IMG/VR virus record: IMGVR_UViG_3300032050_000394
Coordinates: 1-36,404 of that record
DNA from: a virus
DNA length: 36,404 nucleotides
Direction: 5' to 3' (one strand)
Shown here: one piece after another, positions 30,780-36,185 of the stretch
Position numbering within the stretch: the stretch's first letter is position 1
Layout: the number at the start of each line of letters is the position of its first letter
Made by a program: the position numbers and the translations under genes
Notes under the pieces: generated by a model
Told to the model about the DNA's origin: nothing
The model's input: only the letters and a program-made list of their open reading frames with translations
Database searches by the model: none

Positions 30780-30853
30780 GCCTGTGTAGCCCAACTGGCA
30801 GAGGCAACGGACTCAAAACCCGTTCAGTGTGGGTTCGACTCCCACCACAGGCA
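30780..30853 (+). tRNA. tRNA with anticodon CAA, short variable loop
   Basis: Full cloverleaf of 74 bases: acceptor GCCTGTG/CACAGGC (seven perfect pairs), D arm with GCC/GGC and GG in the loop, anticodon arm ACGGA CTCAAAA CCCGT with anticodon CAA (one A-C mismatch at the loop end), five-base variable region, T arm GTGGG TTCGACT CCCAC, discriminator A. CAA reads UUG (Leu), but a tRNA-Leu would be expected to have a long variable arm. The 3-prime CCA is not encoded. It lies between the small membrane genes and the deaminase. Confidence 0.85.
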
Positions 30854-32884: not shown

Positions 32885-33096
32885 TGGAACGCACACCGGA
32901 GGAAGTTGCAGCGCTGACCGTTGAGGCCAACCGCCGATGGCGGGAGGCGCGGGAGGCAGACAGTCGCAAGTACGGCGGCTGCGAGCAGTGCCTCGATCTG
33001 GCAGGGCCGACTCACGGAGGCTCGAGTTTCTGCCAGTCGGGGTCTATCGCAAGTGGTGGGCACAGGGCACACTGCACTTGCGACTGGTGCTTCTAG
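32881..33096 (+). CDS. Cysteine-rich small protein
   Basis: 71 residues from ATG 32881 or 32884, preceded by GGAAGGAGGG. Helical, charged N-terminus (RTPEEVAALTVEANRRWREAREADSRKYGG) and a metal-site-like C-terminus CEQC...C...H..HCTCDWCF. The end looks like a zinc finger. Thirteen bases after its stop comes a tRNA-like element. Confidence 0.6.
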   Translation: MMERTPEEVAALTVEANRRWREAREADSRKYGGCEQCLDLAGPTHGGSSFCQSGSIASGGHRAHCTCDWCF

Positions 33097-33109: not shown

Positions 33110-33154
33110 GGGCGGGGTAGGCGCAGGTGACGGGTTCGAATCCCGTCCCGTCCT
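33110..33154 (+). ncRNA. tRNA-like element without anticodon arm (T1)
   Basis: GGGCGGG (33110-33116) pairs with CCCGTCC (33147-33153), one G-U pair. Directly inside is a canonical T arm: ACGGG, loop TTCGAAT, CCCGT (33130-33146). Only 13 bases lie between the 5-prime acceptor strand and the T arm, too few for a D and anticodon arm. No other 5-prime acceptor partner is present within normal tRNA distance upstream. Confidence 0.6.
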
Positions 33155-33185
33155 CTTACACTCTAATCCAAGGAGGGGGTGAGAC

Positions 33186-33353
33186 ATGATGGATGATGAG
33201 TTCGATGACTCCGACGACCCCGACTACTTCGATGCCCTTCTCGAGCAGTTCTACGAGGAGGAAATGGGGGGTTCAGTAAGCGTCTACGACTTGCTGAACG
33301 ATCCCGCGTTCCTTCGCGGTCAGTTGCCTTGGCCGCAGTTCGTTGGTGTCTAG
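33186..33353 (+). CDS. Small acidic protein
   Basis: 55 residues from ATG 33186 with AAGGAGG GGGTGAGAC in front. Extremely acidic start (MMDDEFDDSDDPDYFDALLEQFYEEE) then SVYDLLNDPAFLRGQLPWPQFVGV. No family. Acidic phage mini-proteins can mimic DNA or bind host proteins, but nothing here specifically proves that. Followed by hairpin element A. Confidence 0.6.
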   Translation: MMDDEFDDSDDPDYFDALLEQFYEEEMGGSVSVYDLLNDPAFLRGQLPWPQFVGV

Positions 33354-33363
33354 AATGACCTGA

Positions 33364-33387
33364 CCTGAGCATGTCGTTAAACTGCTC
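33364..33387 (+). repeat. Intergenic hairpin element A, copy 1
   Basis: CCTGAGCATGTCGTTAAAC followed by TGCTC. GAGCA and TGCTC pair across an 11-base loop containing CGTTAAAC. Located 10 bases after a stop codon. Two other copies: 33664-33687 and 36162-36185. No U run. Confidence 0.75.
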
Positions 33388-33421
33388 CTGTGCGTCCCCG
33401 AACCAAGAAAGGGGGTGAGAT

Positions 33422-33652
33422 ATGTTGGATCACATCGAGCGCAACTGGGTTCAGTACCTCGTTGCGTTTATCGTGGTGGTTTGCATCAGCGTTTGGGCGA
33501 TTGCGTTCACGCAGTGGCTCACGCTGCCGCAGTGCACCACGATCGCTGAGTACGGCGGTAGCAACTGGCGGAACCTGAAGGAGGGTGCCGCTACGTATGA
33601 GCGCGTCGGCAACGCGATCGTCGACTGCAAGGTGGGCAGGTACCTGCCGTAG
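33422..33652 (+). CDS. Small single-pass membrane protein
   Basis: 76 residues, ATG 33422 preceded by AAAGGGGGTGAGAT. One membrane segment near residues 11-33 (YLVAFIVVVCISVWAIAFTQW). The C-terminal ~40 residues contain two Cys (PQCTTIAEYGG..., VDCKVGRYLP) and could lie outside the cell. Follows element A copy 1 and is followed by A copy 2. Function unknown; size does not exclude a holin-like or superinfection-related role. Confidence 0.6.
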   Translation: MLDHIERNWVQYLVAFIVVVCISVWAIAFTQWLTLPQCTTIAEYGGSNWRNLKEGAATYERVGNAIVDCKVGRYLP

Positions 33653-33663
33653 CAGTCGCCCGT

Positions 33664-33687
33664 CCTGAGCATGACGTTAAACTGCTC
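33664..33687 (+). repeat. Intergenic hairpin element A, copy 2
   Basis: Same sequence as copy 1 except for one base in the loop (GAC for GTC). Exactly 300 bases after copy 1 and 11 bases after the membrane protein stop. Confidence 0.75.
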
Positions 33688-33698
33688 GCCCATCCCGA

Positions 33699-33712
33699 CT
33701 GTCGTGAGACAG
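33699..33712 (+). repeat. Hairpin element E, copy 1
   Basis: CTGTC GTGA GACAG: five perfect pairs with a GNRA-type GTGA loop, 35 bases before the next gene start. An identical copy is at 34451-34464, and a degenerate one at ~34795-34810. Confidence 0.65.
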
Positions 33713-33747
33713 CCATCCATCCCCAACACCCCGAAAGGAGGTGAAAT

Positions 33748-33948
33748 ATGAAGACCATCCGCGCCATCCTGTGGTTCGTCCGCAGGCTGCCTCGGTACTG
33801 GGCTGACGCCCGGTGCGCCGAGATGGAGGCCCGGTGGGACAGGTTCGCAGAGCGCTGCCTGACCCCCGAGCAGCGGTCTGCGTCGCAGGCTTGGGTCGAC
33901 GAGGAGGAGATCCTCCTCGAGATCCTCGACGGCGACGACATGGACTAG
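33748..33948 (+). CDS. Small basic-to-acidic helical protein
   Basis: 66 residues, ATG 33748 after AAAGGAGGTGAAAT, complementary to the full 16S anti-Shine-Dalgarno. Basic amphipathic N-terminus (MKTIRAILWFVRRLPRYWAD), acidic end (DEEEILLEILDGDDMD). All-helical appearance. No family recognised. Confidence 0.6.
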   Translation: MKTIRAILWFVRRLPRYWADARCAEMEARWDRFAERCLTPEQRSASQAWVDEEEILLEILDGDDMD

Positions 33949-33962
33949 GACCTCCGGAGTCT

Positions 33963-33987
33963 GACCCACTTGGCAACAGAACGGGTC
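33963..33987 (+). repeat. Intergenic hairpin element B, copy 1
   Basis: GACCC (33963-33967) pairs with GGGTC (33983-33987). 15-base loop ACTTGGCAACAGAAC. Preceded by GGAGTCT. Part of a four-copy family with the same loop but a changed stem: compare GCCC/GGGC in copies 2 and 3 and AGCCCC/GGGGCT in copy 4. Confidence 0.78.
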
Positions 33988-33989
33988 GT

Positions 33990-34040
33990 AGGCACGGCTG
34001 CTGGCGCAGGCGGTTGCCGGGTTCAATCCCCGGCGTGCCT
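33990..34040 (+). ncRNA. tRNA-like element without anticodon arm (T2)
   Basis: AGGCACG (33990-33996) pairs perfectly with CGTGCCT (34034-34040); T arm CCGGG, loop TTCAATC, CCCGG (34017-34033) lies directly inside. The 20-base connector contains GGCGCAGG, as does T1, and a tiny CTG/CAG hairpin. T1 and T2 differ in both stems yet stay paired. TTTT follows, so it might also end transcription. Confidence 0.6.
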
Positions 34041-34072: not shown

Positions 34073-34357
34073 ATGAGCGACTGGTTTCGTCCTAAGGCGT
34101 CCCCCCTTGGCATTGCCGAGGGTGGCGCCTACATGGGCCAGATCTGGTTCGACAACGGCTACGCCGCGTCGATCCGTCTGGAGCCGACCGACTGGACCAA
34201 GGGCGTGCCTCTTTACGAGGTCGGCCTGATCCTCGGTACGCCGGAGTCGTGGGGCCTGCTCGACGCGAGCGACGCGTTGGACTGCGACCGCGAGGTTATC
34301 CGGTACGCCACGGGCGCTTACCTGCTGGATGTCCTTCAGCAGATCCGCAGCCTGTAG
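34073..34357 (+). CDS. Unknown protein
   Basis: 94 residues, ATG 34073 after GAGGAGGTGAAAT. Mixed strand and helix: YMGQIWFDNGYAASIRLEPTDWTKGVPLYEVGLILGTPESWGLL, then REVIRYATGAYLLDVLQQIRSL. Composition and layout could suggest a small single-domain protein, no family known to me. Followed by B copy 2. Confidence 0.6.
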   Translation: MSDWFRPKASPLGIAEGGAYMGQIWFDNGYAASIRLEPTDWTKGVPLYEVGLILGTPESWGLLDASDALDCDREVIRYATGAYLLDVLQQIRSL

Positions 34358-34373
34358 TCGGACACGGAGTTTG

Positions 34374-34396
34374 GCCCACTTGGCAACAGGACGGGC
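34374..34396 (+). repeat. Intergenic hairpin element B, copy 2
   Basis: GCCC/GGGC stem with loop ACTTGGCAACAGGAC (one base different from copy 1), preceded by GGAGTTT. Follows the stop at 34357. Continues into the F module at 34402-34441. Confidence 0.78.
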
Positions 34397-34401
34397 AAGT
34401 A

Positions 34402-34441
34402 GCCGGTAGGGGTAGCGTCCCTTGCTGTCCGGTTGCGACCG
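34402..34441 (+). other. Element F, two-state RNA module, copy 1
   Basis: Hairpin AGGGG TAGCG TCCCT (34408-34422) lies inside an outer stem GCCGG (34402-34406) / CCGGT (34429-34433). CGGT (34430-34433) can alternatively pair with ACCG (34438-34441) across TGCG. The CGGT segment is shared, so the two forms exclude each other. Compare copy 2. Confidence 0.6.
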
Positions 34442-34450
34442 TGAGTGTGA

Positions 34451-34464
34451 CTGTCGTGAGACAG
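34451..34464 (+). repeat. Hairpin element E, copy 2
   Basis: Identical to copy 1 (33699-33712): CTGTC GTGA GACAG. It lies 33 bases before the ATG of the next gene, in the leader. Confidence 0.65.
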
Positions 34465-34497
34465 CCATCCAACCCCTATCACGGGAGGAGGTGATAT

Positions 34498-34707: not shown

Positions 34708-34718
34708 AGCGGAGTCTG

Positions 34719-34741
34719 GCCCACTTGGCAACAGAACGGGC
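34719..34741 (+). repeat. Intergenic hairpin element B, copy 3
   Basis: GCCC (34719-34722) / GGGC (34738-34741), loop ACTTGGCAACAGAAC identical to copy 1. Preceded by GGAGTCTG. The stop of the preceding gene (34707) is 11 bases before. Confidence 0.78.
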
Positions 34742-34746
34742 AAGTG

Positions 34747-34785
34747 ACTGGTGGGGGTAGCGCCCCTGCGTTCCAGTTGCGACTG
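34747..34785 (+). other. Element F, two-state RNA module, copy 2
   Basis: Hairpin GGGGG TAGCG CCCCT (34753-34767) inside outer stem ACTGG (34747-34751) / CCAGT (34773-34777). CAGT (34774-34777) can pair instead with ACTG (34782-34785) across TGCG. Bases change in three segments together compared with copy 1 (ACTGG/CCAGT/ACTG versus GCCGG/CCGGT/ACCG), so both pairings are kept. Confidence 0.65.
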
Positions 34786-34843
34786 TGAGTGTGACCGTCG
34801 TGATGACTGGCCACCAAACCCCTAGTAGGAAAGGAGGTGATAT

Positions 34844-35095: not shown

Positions 35096-35104
35096 TCGGA
35101 GTCT

Positions 35105-35131
35105 AGCCCCGCTTGGCAACAGAAAGGGGCT
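35105..35131 (+). repeat. Intergenic hairpin element B, copy 4
   Basis: AGCCCC (35105-35110) / GGGGCT (35126-35131), loop GCTTGGCAACAGAAA. The stem is longer than in the other copies and has different bases; the loop keeps CTTGGCAACAG. Preceded by GGAGTCT. Five bases later comes element C copy 1. Confidence 0.75.
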
Positions 35132-35135
35132 TACA

Positions 35136-35178
35136 CCCTCCTCAGTGCGAGGGGAGGGAGGCGTAGAAAGGCTGCGCC
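35136..35178 (+). repeat. Double hairpin element C, copy 1
   Basis: First hairpin CCCTCC / GGAGGG with extra TC-GA pairs and small bulges (35136-35158). Second hairpin GGCGTAG, loop AAAGG, CTGCGCC (35160-35178). Lies before the gene at 35215. Confidence 0.7.
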
Positions 35179-35214
35179 AACACGCAGTTTGTCTAGCAGA
35201 AGAGGAGGTGATTT

Positions 35215-35470: not shown

Positions 35471-35510
35471 CCCTCCCCTTCGGGGGAGGGAGGCGTAGAA
35501 AGGCTGCGCC
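35471..35510 (+). repeat. Double hairpin element C, copy 2
   Basis: First hairpin CCCTCCCC TTCG GGGGAGGG (eight perfect pairs, UUCG loop, 35471-35490). Second hairpin identical to copy 1: GGCGTAG AAAGG CTGCGCC (35492-35510). Eleven bases after a stop. Confidence 0.8.
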
Positions 35511-35550
35511 AAATAAGCAAGGCAGCCCTGAATGTGAAAGGGGGTGAAAT

Positions 35551-35819: not shown

Positions 35820-35867
35820 CCCTCCCCCTGCAGGTAGAGGGGGAGGGAGGTGTGGAAAGGCCACACC
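35820..35867 (+). repeat. Double hairpin element C, copy 3
   Basis: First hairpin CCCTCCCCC / GGGGGAGGG (nine pairs). Second hairpin GGTGTGG, loop AAAGG, CCACACC. Relative to copies 1 and 2 two stem pairs change on both sides (C-G to T-A and A-T to G-C) and one T-G becomes T-A, while the loop is unchanged. Confidence 0.8.
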
Positions 35868-35904
35868 GCCTTTCATAACAGGGTAAACAACGAAAGGAAT
35901 CCCT

Positions 35905-36153
35905 GTGTCGAACGCTACCGCCTCGATTGACGAGGCAGAGAACGCTTTCCTTCACGACGGCGAGGAGTCGCTCGTCGCACACTTCTACTGGATCGCCGTG
36001 GTGCAGCCGATTCAGCGGGACGTGGAGGACGCGATGTACTGGTACGAGCAGCCCAAGGAGGCCCGCAAGTCGTGGGTGCTTCTGCAGTCGTGGCTGACGT
36101 ACCTGAAGGTCTTCATGAACTACACCCCGCCTGTGGGTGAGTTCGACCGCTAG
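35905..36153 (+). CDS. Small helical unknown protein
   Basis: 82 residues from GTG 35905, AAAGGA six bases upstream. Mostly helical: SIDEAENAFLHDGEESLVAHFYWIAVVQPIQRDVEDAMYWYEQPKEARKSWVLLQSWLTYLKVFMNY. Ends PPVGEFDR. The high content of Trp, Tyr and charged residues suggests a soluble helical bundle. No family recognised. Last complete gene in the window. Confidence 0.6.
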   Translation: MSNATASIDEAENAFLHDGEESLVAHFYWIAVVQPIQRDVEDAMYWYEQPKEARKSWVLLQSWLTYLKVFMNYTPPVGEFDR

Positions 36154-36161
36154 TAGTTCGA

Positions 36162-36185
36162 CCTGAGCAAGTCGTTAAACTGCTC
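36162..36185 (+). repeat. Intergenic hairpin element A, copy 3
   Basis: CCTGAGCAAGTCGTTAAAC followed by TGCTC; GAGCA and TGCTC pair. Nine bases after the stop at 36153. Differs from copy 1 by a single loop base. Confidence 0.75.

Follow-up and report, generated by a model that had tools for sequence, protein, structure and literature searches.

tRNA-top-half elements in the spacers of phage gene arrays: a recurrent architecture and a candidate role in mRNA processing

Two short elements in the gene gaps of a viral genome piece, here called T1 and T2, combine a T loop, a 12-bp acceptor/T helix and a D-loop-like GG, which are the parts that form the elbow and the upper arm of a tRNA. The same design of T loop, 12 bp and GG occurs behind stop codons in many phages, so that tRNA mimicry, as proposed in an initial annotation of this DNA, has strong support as far as architecture goes. 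That this tRNA-top-half class is real, with T1 and T2 included by their architecture, seems to us highly probable. As for its role, the best explanation is that these mimics serve as processing sites in polycistronic mRNA, to which we would give about an even chance, because the natural element keeps the features that RNase P reads and is placed a few nt past the stop codon.

Architecture and setting of T1 and T2

The window, that is, the whole 36.4-kb stretch of DNA analysed here (36,404 nt), is a piece of a myophage genome encoding the sheath, tape measure, head protease and ribonucleotide reductase. Contigs with an identical sheath indicate that the genome continues for at least 27 kb leftward, and none of them covers the right arm. 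The right end of the window is a rightward array of small genes, where T1 and T2 lie on the coding strand, each in a gap between small co-directional ORFs (Table 1).

Table 1. Positions of the elements, neighbouring ORFs and recurring spacer structures in the window
Feature	Position	Strand	Description
Stop codon TAG of small ORF upstream of T1	33094..33096	+	From sequence and ORF list; 13 nt before T1
T1	33110..33153	+	tRNA-top-half element, 12 bp (7+5 or 6+6), bulge 13 nt, T loop TTCGAAT
T1 connector gtaggcgcaggtg	33117..33129	+	Contains AGGT, with D-loop-like GG; without anticodon arm
T1 T loop TTCGAAT	33135..33141	+	T-loop and 12-bp scan
Small ORF downstream of T1	33186..33353	+	Start 32 nt past T1 end
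Small ORF upstream of T2	33748..33948	+	Ends in TAG 33946-33948; T2 follows 41 nt later
T2	33990..34040	+	tRNA-top-half element, 12 bp (7+5 or 6+6), bulge 20 nt, T loop TTCAATC; then TTTTC
T2 connector gctgctggcgcaggcggttg	33997..34016	+	Contains CGGTT, with D-loop-like GG
T2 T loop TTCAATC	34022..34028	+	T-loop and 12-bp scan
Small ORF downstream of T2	34073..34357	+	Start 32 nt past T2 end
D3 CGGAGYYTGRCCCACTTGGCAACAGAACGGGYC	33955-33985, 34365-34395, 34710-34740, 35098-35128	+ (first copy)	Post-stop hairpin, GCAA loop
D4 CG[T/A/C]CCTGAGCANG[A/T/G]CGTTAAACTGCTC	33354-33387, 33654-33687, 36152-36185		
D5 GGGGAGGGAGGCGTAGAAAGGCTGCGCC	35151-35180, 35483-35512, 35840-35869		Third copy GGTGTGGAAAGGCCACACC, with compensating stem changes

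T1 reads GGGCGGG-gtaggcgcaggtg-ACGGG ttcgaat CCCGT-CCCGTCC and T2 reads AGGCACG-gctgctggcgcaggcggttg-CCGGG ttcaatc CCCGG-CGTGCCT. In a scan for T loops carried by a 12-bp helix, both pair at 12 of 12 positions, with 11 Watson-Crick pairs and one G-U in T1 and Watson-Crick pairs throughout in T2. The seven outer pairs lie flush with the five-pair T stem and a single bulge breaks each helix; the pair at the junction may count with the outer stem (7+5) or with the T stem (6+6), the sum staying at 12. The initial annotation had described a seven-pair acceptor-like helix joined to a five-pair T arm with TTCRANY loops, full pairing in spite of the differing helix sequences and connectors of 13 and 20 nt with GGCGCAGG common to both, and all of this holds at the positions of Table 1, where each of the 24 pairs forms. 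The missing anticodon arm stands as well, since connectors of only 13 and 20 nt cannot house D and anticodon arms. Moreover, the minimum-energy folds given by ViennaRNA hold the two helices in both elements, the paired form of T1 lying at most 0.4 kcal/mol above its minimum-energy fold and that of T2 being contained in the minimum. The 3′ tails are TCTT in T1 and TTTC in T2, with RCCA absent from both; bases 73-75 begin with T in either element (U at position 73), and CA precedes G1 in T1. Of the functions suggested at the outset, binding to the elongation factor EF-Tu and charging are unlikely, because there is no CCA and position 73 is a U.

In the whole window, ARAGORN and Rfam (gathering thresholds) call a single tRNA-Leu (30780-30853) and neither T1 nor T2. 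The rejection by ARAGORN was the anticipated outcome, and no complete cloverleaf had been overlooked, as judged from ARAGORN, Rfam RF00005 and the connectors, which are too short for one. With relaxed Rfam thresholds T1 was unmatched, and the best near-match of T2 was mascRNA (RF01684), at 21.8 bits and thus below the gathering cut-off of 42.5. Under a strict definition (T loop, 12/12 pairs, at least 11 of them Watson-Crick, bulge of 6-24 nt) the window contains two elements, and 1500 dinucleotide-preserving shuffles of the window contained six single ones and no pair; with a narrower 7+5 definition, shuffled windows held 0.015 elements on average, and two together in 0 of 200. That T1 and T2 are intrinsic terminators or chance hairpins is therefore hard to maintain and we consider it very improbable: TTTTCT stands behind T2, which is listed as terminator-like, but the T run is absent at T1, shuffled sequence yields about as many sites in the terminator scan, and chance hairpins are excluded by the statistics of the class given below.

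Every gap between 33.1 and 36.2 kb is filled by at least one recurring structured element, namely T1, D4 (three times), D3 (four times), D5 (three times) and T2 together with D3, the first copy of which shares the gap with T2 and lies directly upstream of it. D3 was seen in 13 other viral contigs, mostly right behind stop codons, and D4 in at least 120 other IMG/VR contigs, mostly intergenic and right behind a stop codon; phage Labelle carries D4 with one small change, 7 nt past a stop. The free positions 3 and 14 of D4 covary (TA 14, AT 12 and CG 2 among 30 distinct sequences), and with this covariation D4 looks like an H-type pseudoknot, in which CGNC/GNCG would combine with GAGCA/TGCTC; the copies in the window have no Rfam match at E up to 10. 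Two stretches behind D3 (34365-34480 and 34710-34830) form a longer paralogous spacer structure, CCGGTAGGGGTAGCGTCCC...CCGG and CTGGTGGGGGTAGCGCCCC...CCAG, with compensating changes.

Such an array could also be read as a series of roadblocks, in which a compact fold behind the stop codon halts 3′-5′ exonucleases, or shields ends left by another nuclease, and so stabilises the cistrons. The post-stop position of the elements agrees with this proposal, as do the other structured post-stop elements in the remaining gaps of the window and the post-stop D4 of many phages. However, a plain hairpin would suffice for such a purpose, and the T loop, the D-loop-like GG and the sharp 12-bp limit would be left unexplained, for which reason we regard it as rather unlikely.

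No orthologue of the T1/T2 gene region was found, nor, in IMG/VR, any relative of the 94-aa protein encoded behind T2. Relatives of the metallophosphoesterase (L070 and L071) were considered as the orthologous region and rejected, their gene order being different. A match of T2 to D29 (E 9) was dismissed as chance: no such structure exists there, and the match lies opposite to gene 1.

Recurrence and shared features of the class

Starting from three marine examples (L316, L331 and L241), similarity searches reached named phages with the same architecture, in which the elements are unannotated. A scan for a T loop followed by 12 contiguous paired 3′ bases, with one bulge on the 5′ side, was applied to a biased sample of loci picked for their T-arm or D3/D4 content, and it counted 15 elements in VanLee (in 20 kb), six in Cafasso, four in Konstantine, three each in MakoManhole, Trine and Endor1, two each in Journey13 and cyanophage NATL2A-133 and one in Dagobah; the shuffle means, computed for six of these loci, were 0-0.11. 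In Gordonia phage VanLee, where 18 co-directional gaps reach 60 nt, 15 of them hold the element on the coding strand, with a shuffle expectation of 0.04, and it mostly sits 5-13 nt past the stop and 46-51 nt ahead of the next start. Such elements also mislead tRNA finders, with doubtful tRNA-Val and tRNA-??? calls falling on them in VanLee and Trine.

The tight spacing from the stop and the regular distance to the following start would be expected of a translation signal, a tRNA-like fold behind the stop codon that acts in ribosome recycling, re-initiation or gene coupling. This is improbable in our opinion, however, as two of the copies in MakoManhole are as far as 99 and 217 nt past the stop and there is no other pointer to ribosome binding. 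The regular series of VanLee also bears on integration or recombination sites of the attP type carrying a tRNA 3′ half, a further suggestion of the initial annotation. Although there is a precedent in the tRNA-like gene of halovirus HF2, which was described as attP (PMC8707807), a paired 5′ strand is unnecessary in such a site, yet T1 and T2 have fully paired acceptor strands, and each of the 15 different VanLee copies has its own fully paired 5′ strand. Two different sites in one phage, let alone 15 in VanLee, and the lack of an integrase among the ten large proteins that were compared with PHROGs further disfavour the proposal, which we find barely credible.

A covariance model of the actinophage GATGGTCG elements (R2) extended these observations. 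In Predator it matches in most of the consecutive gaps gp42-gp48, with 11 pairs and not 12; further matches come from two Streptomyces genomes and several metagenomic phages, and halovirus HSTV-2 gives a marginal one only. Another Predator match (39207-39246) lies at the annotated 5′ end of gp49 (39168-39626; L357), which suggests that the real start codon of this gene is further downstream. An alternative model with a blank connector, R1, picked up ordinary tRNAs too and was set aside. The copies in genome G001 are weak evidence, because their outer stem may derive from a genome-wide GAGACGC repeat; GAGACGC and GCGTCTC motifs are dense there within and between genes (L238, 9600-12400). As a separate observation, Synechococcus phage S-RIP1 (L343, 997-1049) contains a match to the Glutamine-II riboswitch; it scores 50 bits, the cut-off being 33, and separates the major head gene from a hypothetical gene.

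The members of the class share more than their helix. The bulge contains GG, reminiscent of the tRNA D loop, in 52 of 53 distinct elements and GGT in 46 of them, when shuffling of the bulge letters gives a mean of 15.4 and a maximum of 25 for GGT. A 13th position is paired in only 10 of the 53, and among 57 T arms of actinophage loci the helix most often measures 12 bp (27 cases), followed by 11 bp (14) and 13 bp (6). In 35 actinophage elements, the helix is preceded by A at N-1 in 22 cases and by a pyrimidine at N-2 in 31, a bias that suggests a defined 5′ boundary; past the helix, 24 have ACG as the next three bases and none has ACC. Across the class, none of the 53 members has ACC at 73-75 and no RCCA is encoded. 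Both stems covary with many two-sided changes in 15 distinct elements of the same length, which were found partly by pairing. A first covariation count with 10 elements was discarded as biased, the elements having been selected by pairing, and given this bias our case builds on the shuffles, the positions and the content of the bulges.

The octamer GGCGCAGG shared by T1 and T2 was also followed through IMG/VR, where it occurs near a T arm in 66 places. Forty-seven of these are inside ARAGORN tRNAs, ordinary ones in which GGCGC is the 3′ strand of the anticodon stem and AGG the variable loop, and a few others are armless and T1-like (L054, L008, L022). The permuted control GCGGCAGG behaved likewise (47 places, 31 in tRNAs, and again a few armless ones, L281 and L283), and since it yields armless elements about as often, GGCGCAGG was rejected as a signature, but armless elements do recur. 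In 2.5 Mb of phage DNA, 14 of 121 T arms outside ARAGORN genes have a flush outer helix with at least six Watson-Crick pairs, compared to 2-7 in a control with displaced 3′ strands. Two phage contigs hold another kind of tRNA-like gene, composed of acceptor, D arm and T arm and lacking an anticodon arm (GAGC-GGCGCAGGTT-T arm; L011 1385-1445 and L031 2579-2640), and ARAGORN calls neither.

These last genes, which resemble tRNAs minus the anticodon arm only, and the likeness of GGCGC-AGG in T1 and T2 to an anticodon-stem 3′ strand with its variable loop, would fit an origin of the elements as deletion remnants of tRNA genes, with the D and anticodon arms lost and the acceptor and T arm undecayed. 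Nevertheless, T1 and T2 keep 24 of 24 pairs with different sequences, and VanLee keeps 15 different paired copies at regular post-stop positions, which makes remnants an unlikely source.

As to the place of T1 and T2 in the class, both have the 12-bp helix with one 5′-side bulge and the T loop, both carry GGT in the bulge (caGGTg in T1 and gcGGTtg in T2), and both are on the coding strand of a co-directional gap, behind a stop codon. A custom model had been advised as a check, and here the outcome was divided: T1 is the top match of the window for R2 (16.7 bits), but with E-values of 0.11 for T1 and 0.72 for T2, the latter in a different register, neither match to this sequence-structure model is significant. 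The GGT is also further from the outer stem than in actinophage elements. Because architecture and position fit and the sequence model does not, we file T1 and T2 as divergent members of the architectural class and do not regard them as homologous to the actinophage family.

A putative processing site in polycistronic messages

In the proposed mechanism, T1 and T2 would be tRNA-top-half mimics situated between the genes of a polycistronic phage message. The RNA would adopt a tRNA elbow, with the D-loop GG against the T loop, and the host RNase P would count off 12 bp, starting at the T loop, and cut just 5′ of the outer stem, that is, a few nt past the stop codon. RNase Z may then cut 3′ of the element in hosts whose tRNA genes lack CCA. 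In this way the long transcript would yield mRNAs of gene size whose ends are defined, presumably to the benefit of the phage. Cleavage of the elements by RNase P/Z has in our view a chance just short of even.

RNase P is described as recognising the T loop and gauging the 12 bp up to the site where it cuts, G19, G53 and A58 being among the important bases, and its known substrates include the T4 gene 32 mRNA and the phage M3 and C4 RNAs (PMC11143913). T1 and T2 offer the T loop and the 12-bp helix up to the putative cleavage site, and they lack the 3′ RCCA, which a pseudoknot model substrate of RNase P reportedly required (PMC12710915). This lack counts against RNase P, though the tRNA-Leu of the window is also without an encoded CCA. 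The weak match of T1 and T2 to the actinophage model and the 11-bp helices of Predator count against a reading by RNase P as well, and the presence of different elements (D3, D4 and D5) in other gaps suggests a shared role without RNase P, such as 3′-end protection.

A broader proposal is that the elements belong to an unrecognised and widespread class of phage RNA, a modular punctuation behind stop codons that would be cut by the host RNase P/Z and be interchangeable with modules like the pseudoknot-like D4; we hold this as a tentative view, somewhat less probable than cleavage itself. tRNA mimics are known at the ends of RNA viruses and in a few long RNAs. In the literature searched, whose coverage left most subscription journals outside, we found no account of tRNA-like elements in phage spacers as a class and no description of a DNA phage with a tRNA mimic in nearly every gene gap; the accessible part of a mycobacteriophage comparison that covers Konstantine and Predator makes no mention of the elements. 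If the processing role is true, essential tRNA-maturation enzymes of the host would serve the processing of phage mRNA, with no need for a phage nuclease. The unannotated elements of VanLee, Konstantine and Predator, phages that can be grown on laboratory strains, make the idea directly testable.

Comparison with known systems

The closest likeness in form is offered by the bacterial RNase P model substrates AT1 and pATSer, which have the same reduced tRNA, with a 12-bp helix and T loop and no anticodon or D arm. These are synthetic and end in RCCA, whereas the elements described here are found in nature, in the spacers of mRNAs; they have a GG bulge and encode no CCA. The mascRNA/MEN beta RNA family is tRNA-like without an anticodon arm, lies at the junction of a long transcript and is a substrate of RNase P and Z; it is eukaryotic, however, and has a small D-arm hairpin, and its Rfam model neither accepts T2 nor matches T1 (see above). 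The tRNA-like domain of tmRNA consists of an acceptor and a T arm with a D loop devoid of a stem, but at the position of the bulge tmRNA bears a long coding and pseudoknot insert that the T1/T2 class lacks.

As for the arrangement along the genome, tRNAs punctuate mitochondrial transcripts and RNase III sites punctuate the early mRNA of T7, which are likewise processing signals in many gaps between polycistronic genes; in contrast to the T1/T2 class, the former are complete tRNAs and the latter RNase III hairpins. Oriented intergenic elements in many gaps are also described for the L5-like mycobacteriophages (PMC3029335), but these stoperators are 13-bp DNA sites for a repressor, whereas the members of the T1/T2 class are RNA structures.
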